The notes under the pieces: model-generated
What the model was told of the DNA's origin: nothing
Databases searched by the model: none
What the model saw: only the letters and a program-made list of their open reading frames with translations
Translations under genes and position numbers: made by a program
Part shown: one piece after another, positions 2,774 to 58,871 of the stretch
Position numbering within the stretch: the first letter of the stretch is position 1
Layout of the letters: each line of letters starts with the position of its first letter
NCBI GenBank assembly: GCA_024402405.1
Contig: JAKSTW010000008.1
Coordinates: forward strand, 1 to 58,871
Direction of reading: 5' to 3'
Origin: Spirochaetia bacterium
GTDB taxonomy: Bacteria > Spirochaetota > Spirochaetia > CADAEX01
DNA: 58,871 nt

Positions 2774-3331
2774 ATGGCTAGAGAATGGTATATTCTTCAT
2801 ACTTACTCCGGGTATGAAAATAAAATTGAGAAATTTATCCGCAAATTCATGGAAGACAGCCCTGTGTTCGCAGAGATGGTGCTGGATGTCAAGATTCCTA
2901 CTGAGGAAGTCACAGAAATCAGAAATGGCAAGAAAAGGACTGTCAGCCGTAAGTTCCTTCCTGGATATATACTTCTTGAAATGGACTTGGAAGACAGGGA
3001 TTGGAAGCTGCCATGCTCCAAGATTCGCAGTGTGGAGGGAGTTTCAGGATTTGTAGGGTCTGTGGGCAATACAAAGCCTACACCTATATCTGCTGATGAG
3101 GCAAAGGATATACTCCAGAAATGTGGAGATATTAAAGCCGGACGTCATGTCAAGATGAAGCAGTCTTTTGATATCGGAGAGACTGTCAAGATCGTGGGCG
3201 GTCCTTTTGACACATTCAGCGGAAAAATAGAAGAAGTCAACCTTGAAAAAGGCAAGCTGAAAGTTATGGTCAGTATTTTCGGTCGTCTTACACCTGTTGA
3301 ACTTGATTTCGGACAGGTTGAGAAGATCTGA
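2774..3331 (+). CDS. nusG: Transcription termination/antitermination factor NusG
   Basis: A 185-residue NusG. The N-terminal NGN domain starts [17 protein letters not shown] and includes [12 protein letters not shown] (about residues 62-73). The C-terminal KOW domain (about 128-185) includes [19 protein letters not shown]. NusG binds RNA polymerase, suppresses pausing, and links polymerase to Rho or ribosomal protein S10. The length is normal, and there is no extra inserted domain as seen in some other phyla. GGAG lies 9 nt before the ATG. It follows secE and precedes the L11 gene after a 75 nt spacer. Confidence 0.96.
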
Positions 3332-3339
3332 ATATAAAT

Positions 3340-3406
3340 CGGTAAGTTTTACCGTTTGATGGGAGTTTCCCTGCCTGGGGAGACGTTTACCACAAAGGAG
3401 AAAAAA
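3340..3406 (+). promoter_or_regulatory. Structured nusG-rplK spacer, possible L1 control site
   Basis: The 75 nt spacer holds a perfect 6-bp hairpin CGGTAA/TTACCG (3340-3354) and a second small hairpin GGGA/TCCC (3361-3371), with further G/C-rich pairing before the rplK ribosome binding site. In E. coli, L1 represses the L11-L1 mRNA by binding this leader. A similar role here is inference; I could not match a specific L1 motif. Confidence 0.3.
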
Positions 3407-3838
3407 ATGGCAAAGAAAAAAATTGTTGCTTATATTAAATTGCAGATTCCTGCTGGAAAAGCAACTCCTGCACCTCCGGTCGGTCCGGCCCTTGGTCCTC
3501 ATGGAGTAAGCGCACCGCAGTTTGTCAAACAGTTTAATGATGAGACAAAAAAGATGGAACCAGGTCTTATTGTGCCTGTTGTCATCACTGTTTATGCTGA
3601 CAAAACATTCAGTTTTGTTATTAAGACTCCTCCTGCAGCTGTTCTTATTAAGAAAGCCTGCGGAATTGAGACAGGATCAGCAGCACCTCATAAAAATAAG
3701 GTTGCAAAGCTTTCTAAAGCTGATCTCAAGAAGATTGCAGAAACAAAGATGCCTGATATCAATGCAAATGATATCGATGCTGCAATGAAAATTATTGCTG
3801 GTACAGCACGCAGTATGGGTGTTGAGGTGGAGAAATAA
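3407..3838 (+). CDS. rplK: 50S ribosomal protein L11
   Basis: The start is ATG 3407, directly after AAAGGAG. The frame can be extended upstream to 3356, but that lacks a ribosome binding site and the conserved protein begins [17 protein letters not shown]. It is 143 residues, the normal length. The Pro-rich linker [16 protein letters not shown] (about 19-34) and the C-terminal rRNA-binding domain ending in [12 protein letters not shown] are intact. L11 forms the GTPase-associated centre with 23S rRNA and is the target of thiostrepton. Only 2 nt separate it from rplA. Confidence 0.97.
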
Positions 3839-3840
3839 GC

Positions 3841-4512
3841 ATGAAAAGAGGAAAGAAATTTCAGGAAGCTGTAAAGAAATACAACAAACAGGAAGTTATG
3901 TCTTTTGACGATGCGGCAAAACTTGTCAAGGAACTTGCATATGCAAAGTTTGATGAGACAGTAGATTTTTCCATCAGAGTCAACCTTAAAAAAGGTCAGA
4001 GTGTAAGAGATACACTGGTTCTTCCTTATCAGTTCAAGGGTGAGAAGAAGATCCTCGTATTCGCAAAGGGTGCCAAGGCTGAGGAGGCTAAAGCTGCCGG
4101 TGCTGCATACGTAGGTGATTCCGATCTGGTTGATAAGATCAAGGGCGGATGGCTTGATTTTGATATCGCAGTAGCTACACCGGATATGATGAAAGATGTA
4201 GGAAAGCTTGGTCCTATTCTTGGAAGAAGAGGACTTATGCCAAACCCTAAGACTCATACTGTGACTTTCGATGTTAAGGAAGCTATTGCTGAACTTAAGA
4301 AAGGTCGTACAGAGTACAGATCTGATAAGACAGGTATTGTATGTGTCTCTGTCGGAAAGGTTTCAATGGATGCTGAAAAAATCGCTGAGAACATGAAAGT
4401 GGTTGCAGCAGAAATTGCTAGAAAAAGACCTGCTGATGCGAAAGGTGATTTCATCCTTTCTCTCTGTGTTTCTTCAACAATGGGTCCAGGCGTAAAAGTT
4501 CGTCAGGCTTGA
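3841..4512 (+). CDS. rplA: 50S ribosomal protein L1
   Basis: A 223-residue L1 with the family signature around [18 protein letters not shown] (about residues 122-139). L1 builds the mobile L1 stalk that helps deacylated tRNA leave the E site, and in E. coli it represses its own operon. The ATG at 3841 comes 2 nt after the rplK stop, so translation is probably coupled. The protein ends [13 protein letters not shown]. Only 12 nt separate it from rplJ, too little for the long L10-binding leader found in other bacteria. Confidence 0.97.
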
Positions 4513-56715: not shown

Positions 56716-56894
56716 GTTGACATATCAGCAATCACAAAAGGACAGTAATTTATAAAACATATCTGCTTCAGTATGTTATCCAGACTTTTTTCCACGTCCT
56801 GCATGATCTGGGATTTTATTCTTTTTATAAGTTGATCTTTTGGCAGCTCATCAGGAGATGATCTGTCAGCACTTTCATTGTCAATGAACAGCAT
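56682..56894 (-). CDS. Small unknown protein after XRE regulator (70 residues)
   Basis: A 70-residue ORF that overlaps the 3' end of the XRE gene by 14 nt, starting just before its stop codon. It has an acidic start (LFIDNESADRSSPDELPKDQ), a helical middle with several Lys, and an aromatic C-terminus. No family, signal peptide or ribosome binding site was found. The overlap supports translation by coupling, but it could be a chance ORF. Confidence 0.4.
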   Translation of the reverse strand: MLFIDNESADRSSPDELPKDQLIKRIKSQIMQDVEKSLDNILKQICFINYCPFVIADMSTKYYDYHNKIL

Positions 56895-57219
56895 TGCAGG
56901 TGGAACATTTTTTCAGCAGTATCATGAATGCCTGCTGTTCTTCATGGGGCAGTGAATAAAAATATTTTATAAGCGTTTCAATCTGTGGCTGAGAATCCTG
57001 AGAATTATTTTTGGATGCGGTTTCACCTGTAACCAGAAATTCTACGGTGACGCCAAGGACATTTGCCAGTCGGACTGCCACATCTGCCGAGGGCATACAG
57101 CTCCTTGAACCTACATAGCTGTCAATAGCTCTTTTTGTTATTCCGGCTCTTTCTGCTACTTCTTTATCTAAAAGTCCTGAAAATTCGATTGCTTCTCTGA
57201 GTCTGCTTCTGAAATCCAT
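56881..57219 (-). CDS. XRE-family transcriptional regulator
   Basis: A 112-residue DNA-binding protein. The helix-turn-helix domain covers about residues 5-62 (LREAIEFSGLLDKEVAERAG, ITKRAIDSYVGSRSCMPSAD, VAVRLANVLGVTVEFLVTGE). The short C-terminal part (LIKYFYSLPHEEQQAFMILL) probably dimerises. It has no Shine-Dalgarno sequence; TATTTT on the minus strand ends 6 nt before the ATG. A near-palindrome lies just upstream, so autoregulation and control of the divergent lipoprotein are likely inferences. It does not look like a phage CI repressor, as no protease domain is present. Confidence 0.82.
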   Translation of the reverse strand: MDFRSRLREAIEFSGLLDKEVAERAGITKRAIDSYVGSRSCMPSADVAVRLANVLGVTVEFLVTGETASKNNSQDSQPQIETLIKYFYSLPHEEQQAFMILLKKCSTCNAVH

Positions 57220-57225
57220 TTCTAC

Positions 57226-57283
57226 AAAATATCACTAAAGTGTTATTCGTATGATTGACAATGACAATAAAGTGATATAAATA
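57226..57283. promoter_or_regulatory. Divergent promoter region with probable XRE operator
   Basis: A 16-bp near-palindrome TATCACTAAAGTGTTA lies at 57230-57245. A related half-site AGTGATA is at 57271-57277, inside the plus-strand promoter. That promoter has TTGACA (57255-57260) with overlapping -10 options: TATAAA (57276, 15 nt) or TAAATA (57278, 17 nt). The minus-strand -10 TATTTT (57226-57231) abuts the palindrome. A protein bound here could control both genes. Confidence 0.55.
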
Positions 57284-57340
57284 ATATTGTAATACTAAAA
57301 TTTTGGTATTCATGCGAATTCTTAAAAAAGGAGAAGAAAA

Positions 57341-58871
57341 ATGAAAAAGTATTTATTGCTGGCAGTGATGGCGCTGGCAGCAGTCGGCATGGTTCTGACA
57401 GGATGCTCCAACGGATCATCCGGCTGGGAGCCGTCAGATGACTACGGACAGGCCATAACCATCACATTCAATGCCAACGGTCACGGAACCGCACCGGAGC
57501 CTATAAAGGCCAGGGCAAACCAGGAGATCGAGATGCCTCAGATGGCGGCAGCCGACGGATATGTGAACACATCGTGGTACCTGGATGCCGCATGTCAGAC
57601 AGGCAGCAAGGCCGTAGGAACATGGCAGAAGTTCACCAGGAACACCACACTGTACGGCTACTGGACAAACCAGAAGTTCAACATCATCTGGAATGTGAAC
57701 GACCCTGATGTTGAGCCTATCGCCAACACACAGCCGTATGCCCACAGCGCAGTGGCATTCCCGGCTACACCTGTGCATCCTGATGGATATGAGTTCATGG
57801 GATGGTTCACCACAGCCAGCGGAGCTGAGAAGGTGGCAGCCGACTATGAGATCACAAAGGACGAGGAGTTCTTCGCCCAGTGGGGAAGACCGATAGAGGT
57901 CACATGGAGCGTTGACGGCAACACCAGCTACTACACACCGGCACAGTTGCCTGAGCAGAAGAACTGCGGATACCTGCAGTTCCCTGCAACTGATCCTGTA
58001 GGAGAGAAACCTTTCGCGGGCTGGTATGACGCAGAGGACAATGCGGCGACAGCAGAGACCATCGTGCATGACGGAGATGTTTACTATGCGAAGTGGGGAT
58101 ATGCCATAGTGCTGAGCGGCAACGGCGATGGCACTGACGGAAAGGCAGGAGTTGTGGACAACGGAACACAGCTGAGCATCAACCCTGCGCCTGCCAGGGC
58201 AGGATATGCTGTAATGGCATACTTCAAGGACAGCGGATGTGAGACAAAAATTGCCGGTGCGGACGGAAAGCTTGCGGCCAATGTAAGCGGTCTTACAGAT
58301 GCAGACGGAAAGTGGATCGCCGGAACAGACAGCACATTCTATGTCAAGTGGGGAAAGAAGCTGGGCGGAACCATCTACTATGTGGATGACAGAGATACAG
58401 CTGATTATAAGACCAATGCCGCAAGCTGCTACACATTCTACGATGCGGACGGAAACGAGCTGGAAGCGGCAGAGGATCTGACCAAGCACAGGATATCATT
58501 CACACTGGACGGCGAGAATGCCAAGGCAGTGTACTATGAGGTGACAGGCGCTGGAGACAAGGACAGATACTATGTTGCAGGAACCAAGCTTGCCACAACA
58601 TATCCATGGGCATTCGGACCAGCTGATGCTGCAATAAGCTCAACCAACTATAGACAAGAGAACCTCCAGGCAATCCTAGGAGGAGATCCATTACATCAGG
58701 GTTCAGGACATGCAGCAGACTATCAGGGAACAGCATACCTGGGAAGAGGAAAAGGTGATACAGAGACAATGCTGTACTATGATCCGGCTGATGAGAATGC
58801 TGATGGTGAGTACGGACCTTATGCAGGAGGAAAGTTCGGAGGTATGGCTAATGCAACCATGGATAAGTATC
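57341..58871 (+). CDS. Repeat lipoprotein (InlB B-type repeats), 3' end outside window
   Basis: The frame is open from ATG 57341 (behind AAGGAGAAG) to the right edge: 510 codons without a stop. A lipoprotein signal ends in the lipobox LTGC (Cys22). Four repeats of about 70-90 residues follow; they resemble the Listeria-Bacteroides repeat (Flg_new/InlB B-repeat), each ending in a Tyr/Phe-x-x-Trp pattern (LYGYWT, FFAQWG, YYAKWG, FYVKWG). A different region starts at KKLGGTIYYVDD (about residue 345). It is probably a surface-exposed adhesin-like protein. Codons for the first 400 residues strongly favour C-ending forms (AAC, ATC, TAC, TTC) unlike its neighbours, then change near 58590. Confidence 0.85.
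   Translation, partial: MKKYLLLAVMALAAVGMVLTGCSNGSSGWEPSDDYGQAITITFNANGHGTAPEPIKARANQEIEMPQMAAADGYVNTSWYLDAACQTGSKAVGTWQKFTRNTTLYGYWTNQKFNIIWNVNDPDVEPIANTQPYAHSAVAFPATPVHPDGYEFMGWFTTASGAEKVAADYEITKDEEFFAQWGRPIEVTWSVDGNTSYYTPAQLPEQKNCGYLQFPATDPVGEKPFAGWYDAEDNAATAETIVHDGDVYYAKWGYAIVLSGNGDGTDGKAGVVDNGTQLSINPAPARAGYAVMAYFKDSGCETKIAGADGKLAANVSGLTDADGKWIAGTDSTFYVKWGKKLGGTIYYVDDRDTADYKTNAASCYTFYDADGNELEAAEDLTKHRISFTLDGENAKAVYYEVTGAGDKDRYYVAGTKLATTYPWAFGPADAAISSTNYRQENLQAILGGDPLHQGSGHAADYQGTAYLGRGKGDTETMLYYDPADENADGEYGPYAGGKFGGMANATMDKY

Follow-up and report, generated by a model that had tools for sequence, protein, structure and literature searches.

A truncated repeat lipoprotein gene of a spirochaete as a probable member of a retroelement-diversified receptor family

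The last gene of the window (the whole 58,871-nucleotide stretch analysed, which is contig C52 in its entirety) most probably encodes a surface lipoprotein of a family diversified by a diversity-generating retroelement (DGR), and we put the probability of this reading at about 0.74. In this reading a lipid anchor holds a stalk built of Listeria-Bacteroides repeats, which carries a lectin-like (Lcl_C-like) head at its C-terminal end; a variable region (VR), rewritten by the DGR, would take up the last ~42 head codons. Targeted hypermutation by DGRs is known; here the reverse transcriptase (RT) would miscopy a template repeat (TR) at its adenines and the resulting cDNA would take the place of the VR, changing the binding surfaces but leaving stalk and anchor as they are. 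The proposed role of the TR/RT locus, on contig C23, is to act in trans on at least one unlinked target (on C40), and the window gene is probably another. We file the family with the DGR-diversified lipoproteins of the TvpA type.

The lipoprotein gene and its paralogues

The gene (57341-58870, + strand, in the ORF listing) starts with an ATG at 57341 and runs for 510 codons with its frame open to the contig end, which cuts it before any stop. Its signal peptide (57341-57406, +), read from the translation, has the lipobox LTGC (Cys22) at its end, and the lipobox residues T20, G21 and C22 are invariant in three paralogues; the product is predicted to be an outer-surface lipoprotein. The stalk contains a first Listeria-Bacteroides repeat unit (Flg_new, Pfam PF09479; 57458-57655, +) and a second (57680-57877, +) that taken alone scores just below the PF09479 cut-off. 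The N-terminal part of the head (58346-58870, +) starts at about codon 336-340 and aligns with the heads encoded on C40, C12, C5, C2 and C23. Lcl_C was found in five of the six heads scanned (E up to 0.1), below the Pfam cut-off wherever a score was shown; the window head part gave no Lcl_C match when taken alone, and a head profile gave no match against solved structures. Two more Lcl_C-like lipoproteins (L028 6143-7015 and L029 268-1239) have neither a repeat stalk nor a TR match, and an Lcl_C-like stretch on C2 (34469-34735; L025, within L030) has an in-frame TAG and is perhaps a decayed gene.

The nearest relative of the window gene over its whole length is the complete paralogue on C40, whose protein is 51% identical; the C12 paralogue, likewise complete, is more distant (40%). 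Since the C40 protein has 597 residues, about 86 C-terminal codons of the window gene are missing. The window sequence ends at a DKY motif; in C40, this motif lies about 44 codons ahead of the VR and 86 ahead of the stop. The contig thus ends ~44 codons ahead of the expected position, and a VR of the window gene's own is inferred. The C40 head is 67% identical to the window head part and 65% identical to the C23 tail, a family-member 3' end with which contig C23 begins about ten codons ahead of the DKY motif. Over its final ten bases C52 is identical to C23 and has two differences from C40; the C23 bases ahead of the DKY motif do not match C52. The C23 tail may be the continuation of the window gene, the continuation of a family gene at the edge of C7, or part of a further copy. 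Contigs break within the family at the end of C52, the start of C23 and the start of C7.

The retroelement and its targets

Contig C23 carries, in order, the family-member tail (first 302 bases), the TR (~553-690), an ORF of 145 residues, the RT gene (1082-2236), which overlaps that ORF, and an IS3-OrfA-like gene. The RT matches RVT_1 and phrog_1423 (reverse transcriptase, E 1e-78). Its best solved relative is a reverse transcriptase (entry 8ub7, E 6e-32), which we take to be that of the Bordetella phage DGR. It is 33-42% identical to the RTs of phage and bacterial DGR-like loci, three spirochaete contigs included. In the DGR-like loci L062 and L060 a lectin-like tail gene, a small gene and an N-rich template lie ahead of the RT, as judged by eye. 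Used as a single query, the C23 RT found no relative in a collection of genome contigs, and it was not found in six other genomes of the genus or in ten others of the family. The lipoprotein family was likewise not found in the six genus genomes, a lipoprotein alignment gave no match to viral contigs, and the C40 lipoprotein gave none in a phage collection.

Between TR positions 556-681 and the C23 tail there are 18 mismatches, all 18 at TR adenines (binomial p 1e-9), and between the same positions and the end of the C40 gene there are 27, 22 of them at TR adenines (p 1e-7), against a baseline of 40 adenines among the 126 TR bases. In the VR frame the TR encodes an Asn-rich peptide ending in NAVVPVRD. 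The mismatches are thus adenine-only at C23 and adenine-biased at C40; the five that fall elsewhere suggest that C40 may be an old target. The DGR is probably active now. A TR search of the genome, an assembly of 53 contigs, found VRs on C23 and C40, two contigs served by one TR, and no third; with only two VRs found, the assembly lacks one expected 3' end or has collapsed it. The C12 gene differs from the TR at 65 of 126 positions, 25 of them at adenines, and is no present target of the C23 TR.

These results bear on whether the window gene is a target or a lipoprotein relative whose C-terminal VR was never present or has been lost. The latter is unlikely. It draws on the absence of the window gene's VR from the assembly and on the genes of C12, C5 and C2, Lcl_C-like lipoproteins that have no TR match in the genome; however, C40, by far the closest relative, does have a VR, and the window head matches C40 right up to the contig end. 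We retain the window gene as a probable DGR target.

The 145-residue ORF between TR and RT lies where an accessory gene would be expected, but gave no library or profile match to an accessory protein, no HRDC match and no match to five Avd-like proteins of other DGR loci, which are presumably Avd. Neither it nor the lipoproteins had relatives among the 5479 open frames of 85 DGR loci (phmmer, E 1e-3). Hairpins follow the stop codons at C23, C40 and C12 and are stable at all three loci (z -9.3, -5.0 and -3.9). Their loops (CTGT, TTTC and one of 6 nt) lack the GRNA consensus; that loop rule was derived for phage-related elements and does not define DGR targets in general. The stems may be DGR cruciforms or, equally, transcription terminators.

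A common leader, divergent regulators and OrfA-like genes

A 33-base leader spanning the ribosome site and first codons (57326-57358, +, in the pattern scan of the window) occurs at four places in the genome only, on C52, C40, C7 and C12, and at none in the reversed control. The pattern is exact in C52, C40 and C7 and has one mismatch in C12. The fourth leader gene lies at the edge of C7 and is cut off after 26 bases. An alignment of the sequence upstream of the leader revealed nothing obvious common to the four loci.

Each of the four leader genes faces a divergent HTH gene, of 112 (C52), 118 (C40), 101 (C12) and 108 residues (C7), and HTH_3 is above the Pfam cut-off in all four products. The window copy (56881-57219, - strand) encodes an XRE-type regulator that also exceeds the cut-off for Phage_CI_repr. 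Among 1308 frames (162 kb of genome), a profile of the four regulators detected no others at E 0.1 or better. This profile was built from the same four proteins; when each was left out in turn, the missing one was recovered at E 2e-4 to 3e-13 with all others at 0.0084 or worse. In the interval between regulator and lipoprotein gene of the window lies an operator-like inverted repeat (57229-57278) with 19-nt arms that are 79% complementary, in a region whose best short palindrome is no better than in shuffles. Across the family, intergenic palindromes beat simple (not dinucleotide-preserving) shuffles at C40 and C7 and do not at C52 and C12.

The pairing of target and opposing XRE gene has so far been seen in this genome alone. 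When the regulators were compared with the 5479 frames of the 85 DGR loci (phmmer, E 1e-3), that of C40 had three relatives, that of C7 one and those of C52 and C12 none; an XRE-like gene facing a DGR target could be shown in none of the three XRE-bearing loci among the 85. No target was seen opposite the XRE-like gene in L101 and L119. In L118, from another genome and with a DGR-like RT nearby, an XRE-like gene (3303-3512, -) related to the C40 and C7 regulators (E 1e-11 and 1e-10) faces a gene (3580-4239, +) that by eye encodes a prepilin; no TR-like repeat to the latter was found in the first 260 bases.

IS3-OrfA-like HTH genes immediately follow the C12 and C40 genes, and one stands behind the RT gene of C23; the copies lie at L027 2251-2538, L017 10084-10356, L016 5995-6061 and the end of L131 (C27). 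The C40 copy is cut by the contig end but agrees with that of C23 in 66 of 67 bases, and the piece at the C27 edge does so in 87 of 90. The rest of an IS3 element was not seen after the C23 and C12 copies, where the next frames are housekeeping-like by eye. The OrfA-like proteins had no relatives among the 5479 frames of the DGR loci at the same threshold, and four weak matches in plasmids. The arrangement suggests that regulator, target and OrfA-like gene form modules that have been duplicated.

In the mechanism that we propose, each dispersed target, headed by the common leader, would probably be repressed by its own opposing XRE-type regulator, so that the displayed variable receptor is set gene by gene. 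More tentatively, the system may combine random diversification with choice of receptor, one DGR serving dispersed receptors that each have a dedicated repressor, in modules extending from the ribosome site to the orphan IS3-OrfA-like gene. To our knowledge it is not known how a cell picks which of several diversified proteins to make; if the proposal holds, target choice could be tested within a single genome, on four paralogues that share a leader but have different divergent regulators. Most of the parts are of known kinds; what the literature examined does not describe is a shared leader combined with a separate regulator for every target. In the literature searched we recognised no description of a DGR whose targets are individually matched with divergent XRE genes, which does not prove that none exists.

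Codon use and its shift

The initial annotation had singled the gene out as foreign-like in codon use, with a shift near 58590, and had drawn no connection to a DGR. The shift is real: a likelihood change-point test placed it at codon 410 (nt 58571, likelihood ratio 30.1, interval 58541-58601, +), an interval that includes the earlier position, and a change of this size was reached by none of 500 synonymous shuffles. From codons 1-416 to codons 417-510, GC3 falls from 0.60 to 0.29 and C/(C+T) from 0.67 to 0.33. Codon use along the gene is therefore not uniform, with a single change at codon 410, whereas none of the 22 other window genes of ~250 or more codons has a significant change point (lowest: 11 of 100 shuffles; 100 shuffles were made for each of these genes and 500 each for the C52, C40 and C12 genes). 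As the head starts at codon 336-340, the shift falls inside the head, ~70 codons in.

The strong preference for C-ending codons claimed for the first 400 or so codons holds for TTC (14 of 14), AAC (15 of 21) and ATC (10 of 16) of the window gene, and was overstated for TAC (14 of 28) and GCC (18 of 56), which show no C preference, GCA being the commoner alanine codon (22). The contrast with neighbouring genes was borne out, in that the C/(C+T) of the gene (0.61) is the highest among the 36 window genes listed. By strand, this ratio is 0.19-0.40 in the other plus-strand genes of the window and 0.40-0.58 in the minus-strand genes; the stalk resembles the minus-strand genes in codon use more than its plus-strand neighbours. 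The sets nearest to the stalk are the C40 stalk, a repeat protein of C38 and the C12 stalk. As to the label foreign-like, family and RT were not found in the six other genus genomes, but codon use places the stalk closest to other stalks and the C38 protein.

A preference for TTC, AAC and ATC is a usual sign of optimal codons, and its presence in the window gene would speak for selection for translation speed shaping the first 400 codons of a very highly expressed protein, as had been suggested. This account is highly improbable, and high-expression codon selection is contradicted by the codon use of the ribosomal-protein and EF-Tu genes. In codon use the five such genes of the window rank with the sets most distant from the stalk, with a GC3 of 0.31 against 0.60 and a C-ending fraction (two-fold codons and Ile) of 0.42 against 0.65, and hence do not share the bias; nor would such selection be expected to stop at codon 410. 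A long open frame on the opposite strand, also noted earlier, is present (57434-58489, -, in the ORF listing). Its 353 open codons were reached in 1 of 1000 whole-gene shuffles and 14 of 1000 within-segment shuffles; the latter is on the rare side, so that the frame is longer than synonymous shuffling usually yields. Since TTA, CTA and TCA codons are absent along it, codon bias explains most of its length, though not clearly all, and we regard it as largely a by-product of that bias.

The other suggestion, a mosaic formed by recombination with paralogues, is possible although we do not favour it. It would have the last hundred codons gene-converted from a family member, most likely of the C23 type, and concerns the account of the shift only, not the role of the protein. 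A search of the genome for paralogues sharing the ends of the gene gave the pattern that such exchange predicts: nucleotide identity between C52 and C40 is 0.87 over codons 1-40 and 0.82 over codons 454-495, with 0.44-0.60 over codons 41-326 and 0.70-0.73 over codons 327-453 between them. The sharp change point inside the head, away from the stalk/head border, points the same way, as do the agreement of the last ten bases of C52 with C23 rather than C40 and the breaking of contigs within the family. However, GC3 also falls at the same place in the paralogues when amino acids are matched, from 0.61 to 0.43 in C40 and from 0.61 to 0.38 in C12. At the identical residues C52 reaches 0.33 (in the comparison with C40) and 0.31 (with C12), an extra fall that is not significant (Fisher p 0.061 and 0.28); recombination specific to C52 is thus not shown. 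Same-residue synonymous identity with C40 is 41 of 58 over codons 414-495, not above the 34 of 45 over codons 327-413, and the presumed donor stretch is absent from the assembly. Taken alone, C40 has no significant change point (500 shuffles), and the change point of C12 is located elsewhere and runs in the opposite direction.

Most simply, the shift reflects a head composition inherited by the family, perhaps sharpened in C52 by exchange with a paralogue; inherited composition and gene conversion from a copy missing from the assembly explain it about equally well. Copying by the DGR was rejected as the cause, as the stretch shared by TR and VR is 126 bases long, lies at the extreme 3' end of the gene and stops short of codon 410. 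Unusual codon use at the edge of a contig can flag a diversified gene family broken up by assembly.

Comparison with known systems

The closest parallel is the DGR of Treponema denticola, for which the excerpted account describes several scattered target genes, many of them lipoproteins, served by one TR and RT, with a C-terminal VR in a lectin-like domain and a patchy distribution between strains (PMC4891356). The present system resembles this TvpA type, as excerpted there, in having unlinked targets of one TR (C23 and C40) and a lipoprotein signal peptide (LTGC), and in the patchiness of RT and lipoprotein, neither of which was found here in six other genomes of the genus (PMC4891356). Set against the same excerpts, it differs from TvpA in carrying the Lcl_C-like head on a Listeria-Bacteroides repeat stalk, and from the T. 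denticola system in the XRE gene that faces each target, in the orphan IS3-OrfA-like genes after targets and in an ORF between TR and RT that lacks an HRDC match.

A surface lipoprotein is also the DGR target in Legionella according to an excerpted report (PMC10907252), a likeness drawn from that description. In the excerpted text on Bordetella phage BPP-1, TR-to-VR change is adenine-specific and hairpins lie downstream of the VR (PMC3240598). As in that text, adenine-specific changes occur at the present loci and hairpins follow the VR; unlike the GRNA loops given there, the loops here are CTGT, TTTC and one of 6 nt (PMC3240598).

In its PF09479 repeats the window gene resembles other Listeria-Bacteroides repeat surface proteins, and it differs from other PF09479 proteins in that the repeats form the stalk beneath a DGR-type head. 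Near another contig end (L019 5464-8325), a 953-residue protein has Listeria-Bacteroides repeats and a C-terminal domain that by eye resembles a Gram-positive pilin. An ORF in L030 (7225-7698) resembles, again by eye, a REP-associated Y1 transposase.
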